Below are positions 42,516 through 53,918 of a DNA stretch of 64,000 nt, piece after piece; position 1 is the first letter of the stretch; each line of letters begins with the position of its first letter. Made by a program: the position numbers and the translations under genes. Source of the DNA: Azospirillum brasilense (GTDB lineage Bacteria; Pseudomonadota; Alphaproteobacteria; Azospirillales; Azospirillaceae); contig NZ_VITI01000005.1 in the NCBI RefSeq assembly GCF_007827795.1, positions 1 through 64,000 on the forward strand. The letters run 5' to 3'. The notes under the pieces are model-generated. The model worked only from the letters and a program-made list of their open reading frames with translations, searched no databases and was not told the origin of the DNA.

Positions 42516-43349
42516 ATGACCGCCGCACGCGCCGCCGCGGAAATCCTGCACCGGGTCCCCGGCTTCCGCCCGCGGGTGGGGATCGTGCTCGGCTCCGGTC
42601 TGGGCGGGGTCGCCGACCGGATCGAGGGGGCGACCGCCATGCCCTACGGCGATCTGCCCGGCTTCCCGCGGCCCAGCGTGGAGGGGCACATGGGCCGGCT
42701 GGTGCTGGGCCATCTCGGCGGCCAGCCCGTCGCCTGCATGCAGGGCCGCGTCCACGCCTATGAGGGCAACGGCTTCGACGCGCTGAAGACGGCGATCCGC
42801 GCGCTGAAGCTGGCCGGCTGCGACACGCTGGTGCTGACCTGCGCCGCCGGCTCGCTGCGGGTGGAGGTCGGGCCGGGGCAGCTGATGGCGATTTCCGACC
42901 ATATCAACATGCTGGGCGCCAACCCGCTGACCGGTCCCAACGAGGACAGCTTCGGCCCGCGCTTCCCCAGCATGACCGACGCCTGGGACCCCGCCTTGCG
43001 CGCGCTGATGCGGCGCCGGGCGCTGGAGTTGAACATCGATCTGGTCGAGGGCGTGTACGCCGCCTATCCCGGCCCCTCCTTCGAGACGCCGGCGGAGGTT
43101 CGGATGTTGAAGGTCCTGGGGGCGGACGCGGTCGGCATGTCCACGGTGCCCGAATGCATCGTCGCGCGGCATTGCGGCCTTCGGGTCGTGGGCTGCGCGG
43201 TCATCACCAACCTGGGCGTGGGACTCGGCGACGGGCCGGTGGACCATGACCAGACCCTGCGCGCCGCCTCGGCCGCCGCCTCCGACCTGGAGCGGTTGCT
43301 GACCGGCTTTCTCGACGGGCTGAACGTAGACGAAGGACGCCGGTCATGA
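42516..43349 (+). CDS. punA: Purine nucleoside phosphorylase (trimeric type)
   Basis: The enzyme splits purine (deoxy)nucleosides with phosphate into base and (deoxy)ribose-1-phosphate. The 277-residue protein is of the trimeric PNP/MTAP type, with IVLGSGLGGVADRI (residues 22-35, phosphate site), MQGRVHAYEGN, LVLTCAAGSL and YAAYPGPSFETPAEVRMLKVLGAD followed by VGMSTVPECIVARH. All are standard in PunA/XapA-like proteins. It is 15 bases after cdd, and its stop overlaps the deoC start. Confidence 0.94.
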   Translation: MTAARAAAEILHRVPGFRPRVGIVLGSGLGGVADRIEGATAMPYGDLPGFPRPSVEGHMGRLVLGHLGGQPVACMQGRVHAYEGNGFDALKTAIRALKLAGCDTLVLTCAAGSLRVEVGPGQLMAISDHINMLGANPLTGPNEDSFGPRFPSMTDAWDPALRALMRRRALELNIDLVEGVYAAYPGPSFETPAEVRMLKVLGADAVGMSTVPECIVARHCGLRVVGCAVITNLGVGLGDGPVDHDQTLRAASAAASDLERLLTGFLDGLNVDEGRRS

Positions 43350-44191
43350 AACTTCCCGCCGATCTTCAACGGGCACTCGACACTACGACCACCGCCAAGG
43401 CCGACGCCAAGGGAGCCGGGCGGGCCATCGGTCTGCTCGACCTGACCAGCCTGAACGACGACGACACCGACCAGACGGTGGAGGCGCTGTGCAAGCGCGC
43501 CGTCACCCCCGCCGGGAAGGTCGCCGCGGTGTGCGTCTGGCCGCGCTTCGTCAAGACGGCGCGCAAGGCGCTGAAGGGCAGCGGCGTGAAGATCGCCACC
43601 GTCGTCAACTTCCCCTCGGGGGAGGCCGACGCGGCAGTGGTGGCGGCGGAGGCCAAGGCGGCCATCAAGGACGGCGCGACCGAGATCGACGTGGTGCTTC
43701 CCTACCGCGCCTTCATCGACGGCGCCCGCACCCAGCCGATGAACGTGATCCGCGCCTGCCGCGAGGCCTGCGGGACCGACGTGACGATGAAGGTGATCCT
43801 GGAGTCCGGCTGCTTCCCCGATCCGGAACTGCTGGCCTGGGCCGCCCGCGACGCCATCGCCGCCGGGGCGGATTTCCTGAAGACCTCCACCGGCAAGGTG
43901 CAGCCCGCGGCGACGCTGGAGGCGGCGGCGCTGCTGCTGCACGTCATCCACGAATCGGGCAAGCCGGTGGGCTTCAAGGCGGCGGGCGGCATCCGCGACG
44001 CCGACGGGGCGGCGGCCTATCTGGCGCTCGCCACCGCGATCCAGGGCAAGGGCTGGGCCAAGCCGGACACGTTCCGCTTCGGCGCGTCGGGGCTGCTGGA
44101 CTCGCTGCTTGCCACCGCCGGCCATGGTGGCGGCAAAGGCGATGGCAAGGGAGGCGGGGCGGTTGCCCAGCCGGCCGCCGCCGGTTATTGA
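43346..44191 (+). CDS. deoC: Deoxyribose-phosphate aldolase
   Basis: DeoC cleaves 2-deoxyribose-5-phosphate to glyceraldehyde-3-phosphate and acetaldehyde. The 281-residue protein has the Schiff-base lysine in GADFLKTSTGK, preceded by EIDVVLPYRAFIDG and MKVILESG and followed by VGFKAAGGIRDADGA, the second conserved lysine motif. This is the longer DeoC type. The C-terminus (last ~25 residues) is a low-complexity GGGKGDGKGGG stretch that is probably unstructured. A phosphopentomutase would be needed to link it to the phosphorylases; none is in the window. Confidence 0.95.
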   Translation: MKLPADLQRALDTTTTAKADAKGAGRAIGLLDLTSLNDDDTDQTVEALCKRAVTPAGKVAAVCVWPRFVKTARKALKGSGVKIATVVNFPSGEADAAVVAAEAKAAIKDGATEIDVVLPYRAFIDGARTQPMNVIRACREACGTDVTMKVILESGCFPDPELLAWAARDAIAAGADFLKTSTGKVQPAATLEAAALLLHVIHESGKPVGFKAAGGIRDADGAAAYLALATAIQGKGWAKPDTFRFGASGLLDSLLATAGHGGGKGDGKGGGAVAQPAAAGY

Positions 44192-44227
44192 TCCGGGGAA
44201 CAGCTCGACCATAGGACGGACGCACGG

Positions 44228-45550
44228 ATGCTTCCCCAGGAACTGATTCGCAAGAAGCGCGACGGCGCACGCCTGGACGCGGCGGAGATCGGCGCCTTCG
44301 TGCGCGGCATCACGGACGGCTCGGTCACCGAAGGACAGGCGGCGGCCTTCGCCATGGCCGTCTTCTTCCGCGGCATGACGCTGGAGGAGCGGGTGGCCCT
44401 GACGCTGGCCATGCGGGATTCCGGGACGGTGATGCGCTGGGACCATCTCGACCTGCCGGGACCGGTGGTCGACAAGCATTCGACCGGCGGCGTCGGCGAC
44501 AAGGTCAGCCTGATCCTCGCCCCGGCGCTGGCCGCCTGCGGCGGATTCGTGCCGATGGTGTCGGGGCGCGGGCTGGGCCACACCGGCGGCACGCTCGACA
44601 AGTTCGAGAGCATCCCCGGCTACCGCGCCAAGCCAGACCGGGCGACGCTGGAGCGGGTGGTGAAGGAGGTCGGCTGCGCGGTGATCGGCGCCACCGACGA
44701 CATCGCCCCCGCCGACCGCCGGCTCTACGCCATCCGCGACGTGACGGCGACGGTGGAGACCATCGACCTGCTGACCTCCTCCATCCTGTCGAAGAAGCTG
44801 GCGGCGGGGCTGGATGCGCTGGTCATGGACGTGAAGTTCGGCTCCGGCGCGTTCCTGCCCGACATCGCCAAGGCGCGGGAACTGGCCGACAGCCTCGTCA
44901 CCGTGGCCGAGGGCGCCGGGCTGCCCACCGTCGCCCTGCTGACCGACATGAACGAGGTGCTGGGCCTGACCGCCGGCAACGCGCTGGAGATGCGGGAGTG
45001 CATCGACATCCTGCGCGGCGGCACGGCCGACTCCCGGCTCTACGAGGTCACCGCGGCCCAGGCCGCCGAGCTGCTGGTGCTGGCCGGGCTGGTCCCCGAC
45101 GCCGCCGGCGGCCGCGCCCGGTTCGACCAGGCGATGGCGAGCGGGCAGGCCGCCGAGCGCTTTGCCCGCATGGTCCACGCGCTGGGCGGCCCGGCGGACC
45201 TGCTGGACGCGCCGGACCGCTATCTGGACGCCGCTCCCGTCGTCCAGCCGGTCTTTGCCGAACGGGCGGGCGTGGTGGCGGCCATCGACGTGCGGGCGGT
45301 CGGCATCGCCGTGGTGGCCCTGGGCGGCGGGCGGACCAAGACGACCGATCCCATCGACTTCGCCGTCGGGCTGGCCGACGTCGCCGGGCTGGGCGCTTCG
45401 GTGGGGCCGGCGGAGCGCCCCCTCGCCGTCGTCCACGCCCGCAGCGTGGCGCAGGCGGAGGACGCTGCGGCGCTGCTCCGCCGCGCCTTCACCGTGGCCG
45501 ACACCGCCCCGCCGGCCGGGCCGCTGATCGCCGACCGCATCCGGCTGTAA
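44228..45550 (+). CDS. deoA: Thymidine phosphorylase
   Basis: DeoA releases thymine or uracil from (deoxy)nucleosides, giving deoxyribose-1-phosphate. The 440-residue protein has an N-terminal helical domain with [20 protein letters not shown], then the phosphate-site signature [17 protein letters not shown] (about residues 84-100) and [20 protein letters not shown]. The C-terminal PYNP domain has [10 protein letters not shown]. It is the last gene of the nucleoside operon. No terminator hairpin is visible in the nine-base gap to the convergent oxidoreductase gene. Confidence 0.96.
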
Positions 45551-49116: not shown

Positions 49117-49284
49117 GCTTCGTGACGACTTTCCGGTTGGGGCCACGGTCCGGGGCGGGCCGGGGGCGGCGGAAGGAACCACGGGAAGCACGACTTTCCG
49201 GTGTCTGTTGCGTTGCGAAATTGTGAAAACGCGCCGGGCCGCCGCTTGACAGCCGGGCGCGGGGCTCACACTGTGCACACGAAC

Positions 49285-49361
49285 GGCTGGGGTGCCTGCC
49301 GCAAGGCGGGCTGAGACCACACCCATCGAACCTGATCTGGGTCATGCCAGCGAAGGGAGCC
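49285..49361 (+). promoter_or_regulatory. TPP (thiamine pyrophosphate) riboswitch, THI-box
   Basis: All conserved THI elements are present in order: GGCTGGGGTGCC, CTGAGA (49311-49316), ACCC, GAACCTGATCTGGGTCATGCC and AGCGAAGGGAGCC. The 5' GGCT (49285-49288) pairs with AGCC (49358-49361) as P1. It is on the same strand as, and 84 bases upstream of, the ABC importer gene at 49445. TPP binding is expected to switch off expression. Confidence 0.95.
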
Positions 49362-49396
49362 AAGCGTTCGAGGCTGTGCCGCCGCTACACCCCTGG

Positions 49397-49434
49397 CCTC
49401 CTCGTCCTCGCGCGGTTCTTCGCCGGGCAGGAGG
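49397..49434 (+). promoter_or_regulatory. Candidate riboswitch expression platform (anti-SD)
   Basis: CCTCCT (49397-49402) is exactly complementary to the Shine-Dalgarno AGGAGG (49429-49434) that precedes the ATG at 49445. The two are 26 bases apart and could form a hairpin that hides the ribosome binding site. There is no T-run, so control of translation rather than transcription is likely. Confidence 0.55.
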
Positions 49435-49444
49435 AGACACATTC

Positions 49445-50587
49445 ATGCGGCGCTTCCTTTCCATCCTCTCGGCAACGGCCTTTTCGGCGGTTTTCTCGGC
49501 GACGCTCCTGCCGGGCGTGGCGCGGGCGGGCGAGGCCTCGGTCCCCGTTCTGGTGCCGCTGACCGGCTTCCTGTCGCTGGAGGGGACGAGCCAGCGCAAC
49601 GGCGCCGTCCTGGCGCTGAAGGACGCACCCGCGGATGTCGCGGTGCGCTCGGAAGTGATCGACACCGGCACCTCGCCGGAGGCCGCCGTCACGGCGCTGG
49701 AGCGCGCGGCGGGCGGCACGGTCACGGCGGTGGCGGCCAGCATGCTGGGCACGCAGATGCTGGCGATGCTGCCGCTGGCCCAGGATTACGGCATTCCGCT
49801 GGTCACCGTGTCGGGCACGGCGAGCATCACCGAGCAGGGCAACCCCTGGGTCTTCCGCTTCTTCCCCGGCGACGCCGTGACCAAGGAGGCCCACGCCCGC
49901 TACGTGACGGAGGAATTGGGGAAGAAGCGCCCGGCGGTGATCTACCAGACGACCGCCTACGGGCAGAGCGGCAAGGCTCATCTGGAGCAGGCCTTCAAGA
50001 CGTTGGGCGTCGAGCCGGTGTTCGAGGAGGGGGTGGACCCTGCCGCCAAGGATCTGCTGCCCGTTCTGACCAAGGCGCTGGCGGCCAAGCCCGACGTGCT
50101 GGTGCTGCATCTGCATTCCGGCCCGACCGCCCTGTTCATCCGGCAGGCGGCGGCCAACGGGGTGGCGGTGCCCATCGTCGCCGGGTCGGCCATGCACCAG
50201 CCGAGCACGGCGGCGCTGCTGGAACCGGCCGAGCTGAAGGGCGTCTGCGCCGAGACGGCGGCCTCGCCGATCTCCGGCGGCAACCCGGAGGTGGAAGCCT
50301 TCACCGCCGCCTACCGCGCCGCCTTCAACGCGGAGCCGGACGCCTTCGCGCTCGGCCAGTATGACGGCATCCGCATGGTGCTGGCGGCGGTGCAGGCCGG
50401 CGCGGGGAACGCGGAGGCGGTGCGCAAGGCCCTGTCCGCCGGGACCCATCAGGGCCTCGCCATGACCTACCGCTCGGACGGCAAGGGCAACATGGCGCAC
50501 TCCGCCGTGATCGTCTGCTACGACGGCGCTTCGCGTGTGCCGGCGATTGCCAAACGGTACGACAATGTGACCGGCGTGGTGAGGTGA
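49445..50587 (+). CDS. HAAT-type ABC substrate-binding protein under TPP-riboswitch control
   Basis: The 380-residue protein has a signal peptide (about residues 1-28, ending GVARAGEA) and the two-lobed Peripla_BP_6 fold of branched-chain amino-acid (LivJ-like) binding proteins. Family-type stretches are PVLVPLTGFLSLEGTSQRNGA near the start, VTVSGTASITEQGNPWVFRFFPGD, VIYQTTAYGQSGKAHLEQAF and ALGQYDGIRMVLAA. The strong ribosome binding site AGGAGG precedes the ATG. It is the first gene after an intact TPP riboswitch and is followed by two permeases and two ATPase domains. I infer that the ligand is thiamine or a thiamine building block rather than a branched-chain amino acid. Confidence 0.88.
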   Translation: MRRFLSILSATAFSAVFSATLLPGVARAGEASVPVLVPLTGFLSLEGTSQRNGAVLALKDAPADVAVRSEVIDTGTSPEAAVTALERAAGGTVTAVAASMLGTQMLAMLPLAQDYGIPLVTVSGTASITEQGNPWVFRFFPGDAVTKEAHARYVTEELGKKRPAVIYQTTAYGQSGKAHLEQAFKTLGVEPVFEEGVDPAAKDLLPVLTKALAAKPDVLVLHLHSGPTALFIRQAAANGVAVPIVAGSAMHQPSTAALLEPAELKGVCAETAASPISGGNPEVEAFTAAYRAAFNAEPDAFALGQYDGIRMVLAAVQAGAGNAEAVRKALSAGTHQGLAMTYRSDGKGNMAHSAVIVCYDGASRVPAIAKRYDNVTGVVR

Positions 50588-50594
50588 GGGGGTC

Positions 50595-51479
50595 TTGATC
50601 ACCCTGCAACTTCTCGTCAACGGCTTGGCCCTGGGTGCGGCCTATGCGCTGGTCGCGCTGGGCTTCGTGCTGGTGCTGAACGCCACCGCGGCGGTGAATT
50701 TCGCGCAGGGCGACCTCGTGATGGCCGGCGGGCTGCTCGGCGTGGCGCTGGCGCCGCATCTGCCGGGGTATCTGCCGCTGCCCGGATTGCTCCTGCTGCC
50801 GGTGGTGCTGGTGCTGATGGCCGGGCTGGGGCTGCTGCTGGCGGCGGCGGCCTATCTGCCGCTGCGCCGCCGCCCGCCGGTGGCGGTCTTCATCAGCACC
50901 ATCGCGGCGGGCATCATCCTGCAGAACGGCGCCTCCGTCCTGTTCGGTCCGGAGCCGCGGGCGGCACCGCCGCTGCTGGGCGGAGGGACGCTCGACCTCG
51001 GCGGGCTGGTGGTGGCGGAGCAGTCGCTGGCCATCATCGCCGTCGCGGCGCTGCTGATCGCCGGGCAGCAATGGCTGTTCGGGCGGACCCAGCTCGGCCG
51101 CCGCCTGCGCGCCACGGCGCAGGACCCGGAGATGGCGCGGGCCTGCGGCGTGCCGGTGACGGCGATGATCCTGATCACCTTTGCGCTGGGCACCGCCTTC
51201 GCCGGGGCGGCGGGGCTGCTGCTCGCCAACCGTTACTTCGTCACGCCGACGGCGGGCGGCGACCTGATCCTGAAAGCCTACATCGCCGTGACCATCGGCG
51301 GCTGGGGTTCCGTCCCCGGCGCGGTGGCCGGCGCGCTGCTGATCGCGCTGTTCGAGGTGGGGGTCTCGTCGGTGCTGTCCTATCCGGTGGCGCTGGGGCT
51401 GCTCTACGCGACGCTGCTGGTCATTCTGGTTGCCCGCCCGCAGGGGCTGTTCGGCGAGGCGGCGCGGCGCCGTGCGTAG
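50595..51479 (+). CDS. HAAT-type ABC permease (LivH-like)
   Basis: The 294-residue membrane protein resembles LivH. It starts ITLQLLVNGLALGAAYALVALGFVLVLNATAAVNFAQGD, in which ALVALGF...NFAQGD is diagnostic, has the cytosolic loop RLRATAQDPEMARACGVPV (EAA-like contact with the ATPase), and ends with LLVILVARPQGLFGEAARR. About eight helices are visible. A TTG start at 50595 is directly preceded by a G-rich ribosome binding site overlapping the binding-protein stop region. It forms the pore with the fused permease encoded next. Confidence 0.9.
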   Translation: MITLQLLVNGLALGAAYALVALGFVLVLNATAAVNFAQGDLVMAGGLLGVALAPHLPGYLPLPGLLLLPVVLVLMAGLGLLLAAAAYLPLRRRPPVAVFISTIAAGIILQNGASVLFGPEPRAAPPLLGGGTLDLGGLVVAEQSLAIIAVAALLIAGQQWLFGRTQLGRRLRATAQDPEMARACGVPVTAMILITFALGTAFAGAAGLLLANRYFVTPTAGGDLILKAYIAVTIGGWGSVPGAVAGALLIALFEVGVSSVLSYPVALGLLYATLLVILVARPQGLFGEAARRRA

Positions 51480-51505
51480 GATCGTGCACAAGGTGTGGGC
51501 GCTGG

Positions 51506-51543
51506 CCCCCACCCTGACCCTCCCCCGCTGGGCGGCGGAGGGA
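51506..51543. repeat. Half copy of the GC-rich intergenic repeat (copy 6)
   Basis: CCCCCACCCTGACCCTCCCC and CGCTGGGCGGCGGAGGGA match the left half of the palindromes seen elsewhere in the window. It lies between the two permease genes and its GGAGGGA end provides the ribosome binding site of the next gene. Confidence 0.75.
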
Positions 51544-53211
51544 ATGATGCTTGCGGTGCTGGTGGCGTACGCGCTGCTGTACGCATCGCCCTACGGGCTG
51601 CGCGTGCTGACCGTGGCGGGGGTGTACGCGCTGGCCGCCATCGGTTTCCAGATCGTGTTCGGGCTGGGCGGGGCGCTGTCGCTGGCCCATGGCGCCTTCT
51701 TCGGGCTGGGGGCCTACGCCACCGGCATCCTGGGCAGCCAGTGGGGGTGGGGCTTCGCGGCGACCTTCCCGGTGTCGTTGCTGGTGCCGCTGCTGCTGGC
51801 CCTGCTGGTCGGGCTGCCGGTGCTTCGGCTGGAATCCCATTACTTCGCGTTGGCGACTCTGGGCATCGCGCAGGTCGTCCATCTGCTGGCGGTCAACAGC
51901 CCCGCCCTGACCGGGGGAGCCAACGGTTTGCCGGGCGTGCCGGGCATCATGCTGTTCGGCTGGGCGGTGCCGCGCGGGCTGCCGCTGGCGGCGGTGGTCT
52001 GGGGCTTCGTGGCGCTGGGCGGTCTGCTGGCCTGGAGGCTGGCGCGCGGGCGTTGGGGACGGGCGCTGACGCTGGTGCGCGACGACCCGCTGGCCGCCGG
52101 CACTCTGGGTCTGGACGTCGGCGGGCTGCGGCTGGCCGCCTTCACGCTGAGCGCCGTCTATGCCGGGGCGGCGGGAGCGCTGGCGGTGCACACCCAGCGC
52201 GTCGTCTCGCCAGAGGTGCTGGAGTTCCCCGTCATGGTTTCCGTCCTGACCATCGCCGTGGTCGGCGGGCGGGGGCGGGTGGCCGGGGCGATCCTGGGGG
52301 CGGTGCTGCTGCTCCACCTGCCGGAGTGGTTCCGTTTCCTGGAGCGCAGCTATCTGATCGTCTACGGCGTGGCGCTGCTCGCCACCATCGTGCTGGCGCC
52401 GCACGGGTTGACCGGCCTGCTCGACCGGCTGTTCCCGGCTCGCCCGGCGCCGTTGCCCAAGCCCGCTGCACCACCGGAGACGGCCAACCCGACGGGTCCC
52501 CTGCTGCGGGTCGAAGGGTTGACCAAGGGCTTCGGCGGGGTGCGGGCGGTGGATGGCGTGTCGCTGACGCTGGAGGCCGGGACCATCACCGGTCTGATCG
52601 GCCCCAACGGCTCCGGCAAGACGACGCTGGTCAACCTGATCTCCGGCCTGGAGATGCCGGACGGTGGGCGGGTGCTGATGGGGGGGACGGATCTCGCTGG
52701 ACAGCGACCCGATCGCATCGCCCGCGCCGGGATCGCCCGCACCTTCCAGGCGGTCAGCCTGCCGGAGGGCGCCAGCGTCCTCGCGGCGGTGGCGGCGGCG
52801 CGGCTGGAGCGCGACGGCTCGATCGCCCAGGCCGAGGCCCACGCCCTGTGGGCGCTGGAGCGGCTGGGCGCGGCGGACCTCGCCGCCAAGCCCTGCGCCG
52901 GCCTGCCCGCGGCACTGCGCCGCCGGGTGGAACTGGCTCGCGCGCTGGCCCGCCAGCCCGCCGTCCTGCTGCTCGACGAGCCGGCGGCGGGGCTAACCGA
53001 CGGGGAGAAGGCGGAACTGGCCGGACACCTGCGCGCCATCGCCGCCACCGGCACCGCGATTCTGGTGGTGGAGCACGACATGGGCTTCCTGCTGCCGCTC
53101 GCCGGCCATGTGCTGTGCCTGGACCAGGGGCGCCCGCTCTACGCCGGCCCGCCGGAGGGGGTGCGCAGCGATCCCGCCGTGGTCGCCGCCTATCTGGGGG
53201 AGGGGGCATGA
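51544..53211 (+). CDS. Fused HAAT permease-ATPase (LivM-LivG)
   Basis: The 555-residue protein joins a LivM-like permease (about residues 1-300: GVYALAAIGFQIVFGLGGALSLAHGAFFGLGAY, and VRDDPLAAGTLGLDV as the ATPase contact loop) to a LivG-like ATPase (from about 320). The ATPase has Walker A GPNGSGKTT, Walker B VLLLDEPAAGL and the D-loop and H-loop VVEHDMGFLL. The usual LSGGQ signature is replaced by LPAALRRRVELARAL. ATG 51544 (or 51547) is preceded by GGAGGGA; an upstream GTG at 51472 that overlaps the previous stop is the alternative, but it would translate the intergenic repeat. Its stop overlaps the next ATPase start. Confidence 0.88.
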   Translation: MMLAVLVAYALLYASPYGLRVLTVAGVYALAAIGFQIVFGLGGALSLAHGAFFGLGAYATGILGSQWGWGFAATFPVSLLVPLLLALLVGLPVLRLESHYFALATLGIAQVVHLLAVNSPALTGGANGLPGVPGIMLFGWAVPRGLPLAAVVWGFVALGGLLAWRLARGRWGRALTLVRDDPLAAGTLGLDVGGLRLAAFTLSAVYAGAAGALAVHTQRVVSPEVLEFPVMVSVLTIAVVGGRGRVAGAILGAVLLLHLPEWFRFLERSYLIVYGVALLATIVLAPHGLTGLLDRLFPARPAPLPKPAAPPETANPTGPLLRVEGLTKGFGGVRAVDGVSLTLEAGTITGLIGPNGSGKTTLVNLISGLEMPDGGRVLMGGTDLAGQRPDRIARAGIARTFQAVSLPEGASVLAAVAAARLERDGSIAQAEAHALWALERLGAADLAAKPCAGLPAALRRRVELARALARQPAVLLLDEPAAGLTDGEKAELAGHLRAIAATGTAILVVEHDMGFLLPLAGHVLCLDQGRPLYAGPPEGVRSDPAVVAAYLGEGA

Positions 53212-53918
53212 TGGGAAACCCCCTGTTGCGTGTGGAGGGCCTGACCGCCGGCTATGGCGGGGCGGTGGCGGTGGACCGTCTGTCGCTGTCCGTGGCGGCG
53301 GGGGAGGCGGTGGCTCTGCTGGGCGCCAACGGGGCGGGCAAGTCGACGCTGCTCAAGGCCATCCTCGGACTCGTCCCGGCGACGGGCGGGCGGGTCCGGC
53401 TGGCGGGCGAGGAGATCGGCGCCCTCGCTCCGGAACGGCGGGTGCGCCGCGGCCTGGGTTATGTGCCGGAGGGCCGGCGCGTCTTTCCCGGCATGAGCGT
53501 GCGCGACAATCTGGAGGTGGCGAGCCGGCTGGGCTGGGCCGAGCGCGCCCGTGACCTGGAGCGTGTCTTCGCCCTGTTCCCGGCGCTGGAGGGCAAGGCG
53601 GAGGAGCGGGCGTGGCGCCTGTCCGGCGGGCAGCAGCAGATGCTGGCGGTGGGCCGCGCGCTGATGGGCCGCCCGCGGGTCCTGCTGCTCGACGAGCCCT
53701 CACTCGGCCTGTCGCCCAAGCTGGCCGGGGAGGTGTTCGCTGCCGTCCGTGCCATCGCCGCCGCCGGAACGGCGGTGCTGGTCGCCGAGCAGAGCGCCGC
53801 GCGAGCGCTGTCCGCCGCCGGGCGCGTCGTGCTGCTGCGCCTCGGCCGGGCGGTCCATGACGGGCCGGTGGAAACCCTCCCCGCGGACGCGCTGCGTGAC
53901 GCCTTTCTGGGCGGGTGA
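53208..53918 (+). CDS. HAAT-type ABC ATPase (LivF-like)
   Basis: The 236-residue protein is the second ATPase of the importer, similar to LivF. It has GYGGAVAVDRLSLSV, Walker A GANGAGKST, YVPEGRRVFPGMSVRDNLEV (a LivF hallmark), signature LSGGQQQMLAVGRAL and Walker B VLLLDEPSLGLSP. Unlike its fused partner, its signature motif is intact. Start ATG 53208 overlaps the previous stop (ATGA), so it is coupled. It is the last gene of the riboswitch-controlled operon. Confidence 0.93.
   Translation: MMGNPLLRVEGLTAGYGGAVAVDRLSLSVAAGEAVALLGANGAGKSTLLKAILGLVPATGGRVRLAGEEIGALAPERRVRRGLGYVPEGRRVFPGMSVRDNLEVASRLGWAERARDLERVFALFPALEGKAEERAWRLSGGQQQMLAVGRALMGRPRVLLLDEPSLGLSPKLAGEVFAAVRAIAAAGTAVLVAEQSAARALSAAGRVVLLRLGRAVHDGPVETLPADALRDAFLGG

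Follow-up and report, generated by a model that had tools for sequence, protein, structure and literature searches.

ThiW of Firmicutes is a small membrane protein that operates without a periplasmic binding protein. As given in PMC6478431, ThiW is the predicted thiazole transporter of these bacteria. Lists of bacterial vitamin B1 transporters name ThiB, ThiT, ThiXYZ, ThiV, CytX, Yko, ThiPerm, Omr1 and PnuC, and in the available portions of the three papers concerned (PMC10881298, PMC12236431, PMC12442306) they include neither a system of the hydrophobic amino acid uptake transporter (HAAT) family nor a thiazole importer. No paper connecting a HAAT/Liv importer with a thiamine pyrophosphate (TPP) riboswitch was found in the open-licence literature, a scope that leaves Rodionov 2002 and RegPrecise outside, and no description of a dedicated thiazole importer in the alphaproteobacteria considered here was found in the literature searched. 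PMC3766115 counts 19 TPP-regulated transporter ortholog groups, and it is possible that the present importer was listed earlier among them. Here we describe an operon for a Liv-like ATP-binding cassette (ABC) importer, preceded by a TPP riboswitch, in a 64,000-nt stretch of the Azospirillum brasilense genome (contig NZ_VITI01000005.1, positions 1 to 64,000; the window). Its substrate is probably the thiazole moiety of thiamine, that is, 5-(2-hydroxyethyl)-4-methylthiazole (HET), its carboxylated derivative (cHET) or a phosphate.

The elements of the locus are as follows:

49278-49375, + strand: TPP riboswitch aptamer (THI element), matched by the full-length RF00059 model (1-105) with 62.8 bits, E 2.2e-10
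49398-49436, + strand: predicted hairpin sequestering the Shine-Dalgarno (SD) sequence, likely the expression platform (predicted fold)
49429-49436, + strand: SD sequence AGGAGGAG of the livJ-like gene
49445-50587, + strand: LivJ-like periplasmic binding protein, 380 aa (Pfam Peripla_BP_6, PF13458)
50595-51479, + strand: LivH-like permease, 294 aa, TTG start (Pfam BPD_transp_2)
51472-53211, + strand: fused LivM-like permease and LivG-like ATPase, 579 aa (Pfam domains)
53208-53918, + strand: LivF-like ATPase, 236 aa (Pfam ABC_tran)

A preliminary description of the window had recognized an intact TPP riboswitch upstream of the first gene, on the same strand, and had proposed a covariance search. 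The Rfam scan of positions 40000-64000 bears this out, returning a single TPP riboswitch whose score exceeds the RF00059 gathering score (62.8 versus 54.3 bits). The distance of 84 bases reported between riboswitch and gene was also correct, being that between the conserved GGGAGCC end (approximately at 49361) and the livJ-like ATG. The binding protein, two permease domains and two ATPase domains all score above their Pfam cut-offs, as expected of a HAAT-type ABC importer. The subunits had thus been named correctly, except that the LivM-like permease and the first ATPase form a single polypeptide, with BPD_transp_2 at residues 43-303, ABC_tran at 361-505 and BCA_ABC_TP_C at the C-terminus. With the starts chosen here, including a GTG for the fusion, a 7-base gap is followed by overlaps of 8 and 4 bases, in line with the close spacing originally noted. 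An LSGG signature was found in the LivG half of none of the 52 homologous stretches parsed (67 matched); LivG proteins commonly lack this signature, and no inference is drawn from its absence.

The segment between positions 49395 and 49450 is predicted to fold with a free energy of -22.2 kcal/mol. In this fold, six of the eight SD bases (49431-49436) pair with positions 49398-49403 with a probability of 0.83-0.85. Since the SD is engaged in this pairing, the arrangement fits a translational switch, and the riboswitch would control the livJ-like gene at the level of translation. Folding predicts a similar hairpin in two close relatives (L112 and L117; here and below, L and G numbers are our labels for loci and genomes), and none is evident in the more distant relatives folded alongside. 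A promoter scan found no sigma-70-like site (0.1 expected) and a single terminator-like site (1.9 expected), which lies ahead of the riboswitch at 49182-49200.

The association between riboswitch and importer is widely conserved. Within the order, LivJ matches at E 1e-30 occur in 51 of 82 genomes (50 of them below 1e-100) and in 3 of 13 genera. One genome of the same genus, G005, has no close LivJ match; three riboswitches are listed for it, where most members of the genus have four. Across the class, an even draw yielded 31 matches in 385 genomes at E 1e-40, the source genome included, the other 30 homologues being 50-81% identical; in a draw of the phylum, only the source genome and one other member of the class (2/398) had matches at E 1e-50. 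Rfam's model places a riboswitch directly upstream of livJ in 13/20 and 17/20 loci scanned, while in G460, G194 and G453 the riboswitch at this position scores 48.6-53.4 bits, below the Rfam cut-off. Wider counts were obtained with a model built from 25 of these riboswitches, so they are partly circular: with this model, the riboswitch immediately precedes the gene for the LivJ homologue at 65 of the 80 named loci (including Azospirillum, Skermanella, Nisaea, Thalassobaculum, BAL199, SAR116 and Rhodospirillales metagenome bins) and at 52 of 60 genome loci, namely 30/30 from the order draw and 22/30 from a class-wide set, two loci of which come from the window's own family. Neither search gave a match anywhere but at livJ. 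Riboswitch and importer occur together in 24 importer genomes, which span 12 family codes of Alphaproteobacteria. Thus, the pairing anticipated for homologous operons is mostly kept, with exceptions considered below, and the idea of an undescribed, thiamine-related importer gains support from this spread and from the failure of the proteins to reach the curated Liv or Urt cut-offs listed. Altogether, we have little doubt that the observation is real, conserved and thiamine-related.

The placement of all TPP riboswitches found in a set of genomes points to the arm of the pathway that the importer serves. Fourteen genomes were searched: ten for which the initial Rfam scans gave no livJ riboswitch, G435, which had not been scanned before, and G385, G167 and G187, which had it. 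At E 0.1, 28 riboswitches were found in 13 genomes (none in G271) and were assigned by their coordinates and by reading the stretches, thiG lying 1.2-1.4 kb downstream on the same strand. Seven precede thiC, eight a ThiXYZ operon, six a thiG operon, six livJ and one the gene for a lone SBP_bac-type binding protein (in G167). ThiX and ThiY are present in all eight ThiXYZ stretches and ThiZ in six; ThiY of the other seven is 58-71% identical to that of G453, and the binding protein is NMT1/THI5-like (PF09084) in the three stretches scanned.

In each of the 13 genomes, TPP controls a source of pyrimidine (thiC or ThiXYZ). For the thiazole arm, the thiG operon is under such control in six (G136, G265, G261, G432, G355, G435) and livJ in another six (G460, G194, G453, G385, G167, G187); none of the 13 has both, and G140 has neither. 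In G194 and G460, which have thiC and lack thiG, riboswitches were found only at thiC and livJ; in G453 and G385, which lack both genes, only at ThiXYZ and livJ. By elimination, the importer appears to fill the place of thiazole synthesis. The source genome, where four TPP riboswitches were found including that of livJ, carries the other three upstream of thiC (contig C9), a LuxE-LuxC-ABC importer operon (C16) and the thiO-thiG operon (C17), and thus has both thiG and livJ under TPP control.

Thiamine gene inventories were taken in 32 importer genomes (the source genome, the other 30 of the class draw and G055) and in 12 hand-chosen genomes without the importer. ThiG (PF05690) was counted only at E < 1e-90, since many genomes contain weak matches of 18-33 bits. 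By this measure, ThiG is present in 10/32 importer genomes and 10/12 importer-free genomes, and ThiC (PF01964) in 12/32 and 6/12, respectively. ThiG is absent from 20 of the 24 genomes in which the importer is preceded by a riboswitch, compared with 2 of 8 in which it is not (Fisher p 0.005) and 2 of 12 without the importer (p 0.0002). Absence of ThiC in the same groups (16/24, 4/8 and 6/12) shows no significant difference (p 0.43 and 0.47). Hence, presence of the riboswitch on the importer tracks loss of ThiG, not loss of ThiC.

The preliminary description had offered as ligands thiamine, its phosphates, the pyrimidine precursor 4-amino-5-hydroxymethyl-2-methylpyrimidine (HMP), the thiazole or a degradation product; the accompanying thiamine genes narrow this list to the thiazole half. 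Import of intact thiamine or its phosphates, which would account for the TPP riboswitch and for the 16 of the 32 importer genomes in which ThiC and ThiG are both absent (22 lack ThiG), is unlikely on the evidence of the remaining inventory. Thiamine pyrophosphokinase (TPK, PF04263) is missing from all 32 importer genomes (it occurs in 2/12 without the importer), an observation that covers TPK and not a route through a thiamine kinase (ThiK). Conversely, a gene of the ThiE/TenI family (PF02581) is kept in 31/32, the exception being G192, whose genome is 81% complete; each of the 16 double-negative genomes has one. In three of these (G453, G167, G385) the best copy scores above the cut-off of the ThiE equivalog TIGR00693, which a second copy in G136, linked to thiG, does not reach (123.5/145.1). 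ThiL exceeds its cut-off in 30/32 importer genomes (G192 and G207 being incomplete). From these inventories, the joining of pyrimidine and thiazole seems to be retained, and the usual kinase for whole thiamine to be lacking. Neither retention of ThiE nor a pyrimidine arm under TPP control in 13/13 genomes would be needed if whole thiamine entered the cell, which argues against this substrate.

Import of the pyrimidine half, as HMP, 4-amino-5-aminomethyl-2-methylpyrimidine (AmMP) or its N-formyl derivative (FAMP), would suit the 20/32 importer genomes lacking ThiC and is somewhat less probable again, as that place is filled in eight genomes by a ThiXYZ-type system with its own TPP riboswitch, some importer genomes have thiC and lack thiG (G055, G140, G187, G192, G194, G460), and riboswitch control of the importer does not follow loss of ThiC.

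The relationship to described HAAT proteins was examined with NCBIfam models and by alignment. None of the components reaches the cut-offs for LivJHMGF (binding protein 55.7/477, LivH 95.3/379, LivM 141.2/366, LivG 175.3/362, LivF 174.8/441) or for Urt proteins (UrtB 128.6/250.3, UrtD 158.5/304.1, UrtE 203.2/285.8). Nor is the system of the ThiXYZ type, its binding protein matching PF13458 and PF09084 not being among the Pfam matches listed. The ligand residues of E. coli LivJ we take to be Ser79, Tyr202 and Glu226 (mature numbering), although no supporting paper was found. When homologues were aligned with E. coli LivJ and LivK (taken from NC_000913, where the identities of the residues were checked), the first two positions were Gly and His, respectively, in 53/53; the Glu226 column, made uncertain by a nearby gap, contains Ser in 21, Thr in 10, Glu in 9 and Ala in 5 of the 53. 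Thr102 and Tyr150 are retained in all. By these presumed ligand positions, the protein does not belong with LivJ/LivK. Its AlphaFold2 model (mean predicted local distance difference test score 91.9) has the HAAT binding-protein fold, and the structurally close entries include binders of Leu/Ile/Val, amides and aromatic acids; because these ligands are so diverse, the structural ranking leaves the ligand undecided.

The least probable alternative, an importer of amino acids or other metabolites that has come under the control of a TPP riboswitch, for instance in order to supply thiamine synthesis, accords with the HAAT fold, the Liv-like architecture and the catabolic-looking surroundings of riboswitch-free Betaproteobacteria homologues, but not with a riboswitch kept across 12 family codes, the missed Liv and Urt cut-offs, the loss in most homologues of the glutamate presumed to contact the alpha-ammonium group in E. 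coli LivJ, or the tracking of ThiG loss by riboswitch control.

Several points weigh against import of a thiazole as the function of this operon. Riboswitch-free homologous operons, which the preliminary description had named as a refuting outcome, make up 8/30 of the class-wide set and 15/80 of the named loci. In three of the latter 15 the gene lies near the contig start (L147, L152, L181); several of the 15 are titled Betaproteobacteria, and among the riboswitch-free homologues, several from this group adjoin alcohol and aldehyde dehydrogenases. G140 has thiC and lacks thiG, and its importer has no riboswitch, whereas G000, G011, G079 and G159 keep thiG alongside a riboswitch-controlled importer. 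The Fisher tests ignore relatedness, and their values overstate independence; a tree-based independent-pairs test had two pairs only and no power, and the 12 importer-free genomes were picked by hand rather than at random. Genomes lacking thiG were defined by ThiG only, for which THI4 could substitute, and salvage of HET or cHET needs ThiM, the inventory having covered TPK, ThiC, ThiG, ThiE and ThiL. Finally, thiazole auxotrophs have been described and are called rare at one coastal survey site in the portion of PMC10881298 consulted, which suggests a narrow rather than a general need for thiazole.

Among thiazoles, cHET is the leading candidate, although as a specific assignment it is clearly less certain than the thiazole moiety as such; it is an aromatic carboxylate, as are ligands known from HAAT proteins of similar structure. 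For an E. coli thiG mutant, sub-picomolar cHET is enough for growth, and the HET requirement is over 100 nM (PMC5899164). We tentatively propose, from genomic evidence, a dedicated high-affinity importer of the thiamine thiazole, most likely cHET, in marine and soil alphaproteobacteria lacking thiG, such as Nisaea; the importer and its riboswitch are also present in SAR116. At high cytoplasmic TPP, the riboswitch would fold so that the livJ SD is sequestered and the importer is not made; as TPP falls, the importer would be made. The periplasmic protein would then capture thiazole from the environment and the ATPase-driven permease bring it into the cell, where ThiE would join it to HMP pyrophosphate and ThiL produce TPP. 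In relatives without thiG, the importer could be the only TPP-regulated supply of thiazole; in Azospirillum, which keeps thiG, it might be a salvage route that spares thiazole synthesis.

Some neighbouring genes and related loci deserve mention. Catabolic-looking clusters lie at the riboswitch-free loci L146, L147, L156, L158, L160, L171 and L174, mostly Betaproteobacteria bins. Between them they contain iron-containing alcohol dehydrogenase, aldehyde dehydrogenase, TctC, amidohydrolase and, in one case, UbiD, together with a protein weakly like the ribonucleotide reductase small subunit (22.5 bits, below the Pfam cut-off of 33.6); cluster members were scanned only from L146, L156 and L174, the others being read by eye. 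As a lead only, such clusters might degrade the importer's ligand or one like it; breakdown of an alcohol, HET for instance, would fit, as would that of some unrelated compound. The C16 riboswitch of the source genome (70.6 bits; operon at about 49.8-55.8 kb, corresponding to L036 3795-9824, - strand) precedes genes for LuxE-like and LuxC-like proteins, an ABC ATPase, a permease, an NMT1/THI5-like binding protein and a short-chain dehydrogenase. This operon looks suited to taking up a carboxylic acid and reducing it to an alcohol, the substrate being perhaps an oxidized thiamine fragment. In G274 (L106), the LivJHMGF operon adjoins a LuxC-ABC-short-chain dehydrogenase set resembling that of C16 (LuxC 63%, binding protein 74% identical). 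The third TPP riboswitch of G167 (L195 5615-6770, - strand), just downstream of thiL, precedes the gene for an SBP_bac_6/8-type binding protein, possibly part of a further thiamine-related importer.

Orotate phosphoribosyltransferase (pyrE) lies near the operon in 9/48 stretches, from several families (L086, L087, L088, L091, L096, L099, L102, L108, L109), and overlaps livF by one base in L099. A functional link was rejected: in 17 of the 20 genomes searched, PyrE has no match at E 1e-10 other than this housekeeping gene, and the association is read as positional, probably an ancient gene neighbourhood. A gene resembling threonine aldolase/beta-eliminating lyase by eye has a 4-base overlap with the start of livJ in two related genomes that lack the riboswitch (L098 9523-10614, - strand; L103 7107-8423, + strand). 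In L141 and L148, two riboswitch-free bins, livJ is preceded by siroheme-synthase-like and sulfite/nitrite-reductase-like genes (by eye), and in L141 a gene for a TPP-dependent enzyme (PF02775/PF02776) lies downstream of livF. In the window itself, a deoC-like gene (by eye) and a thymidine phosphorylase gene (TIGR02643, 641.9 bits, cut-off 570.7) at 43346-45550, upstream of the locus, are apparently unrelated.

Annotation based on similarity would label this operon an amino-acid transporter. As a candidate thiazole importer, it could mark thiazole uptake in genomes from soil and ocean. If the proposal is correct, the operon would encode the first HAAT member known to us that imports a vitamin precursor, extending the family to vitamins, and it would supply the missing uptake step for cHET, already termed a microbial nutrient currency.

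With E. coli LivJHMGF/LivKHMGF the system shares subunit architecture, folds and the order of binding protein, permeases and ATPases; it differs from them in the fusion of LivM with LivG, in TPP riboswitch control, in missing the curated Liv cut-offs widely and in the replacement of two presumed LivJ ligand positions in all 53 homologues. The aromatic-acid HAAT binding proteins of Rhodopseudomonas palustris (4eyg, 4evs, 4f06), for which we know of no thiamine link, resemble the binding protein in fold and rank close to it structurally, at only 16-22% identity; their ligands are aromatic carboxylates, chemically near cHET. ThiXYZ, the importer of HMP and FAMP, is likewise a TPP-riboswitch-controlled ABC importer and occurs in some of the same genomes. 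However, it has an NMT1/THI5-like binding protein (PF09084), one permease and one ATPase, and occupies the pyrimidine arm of the pathway.

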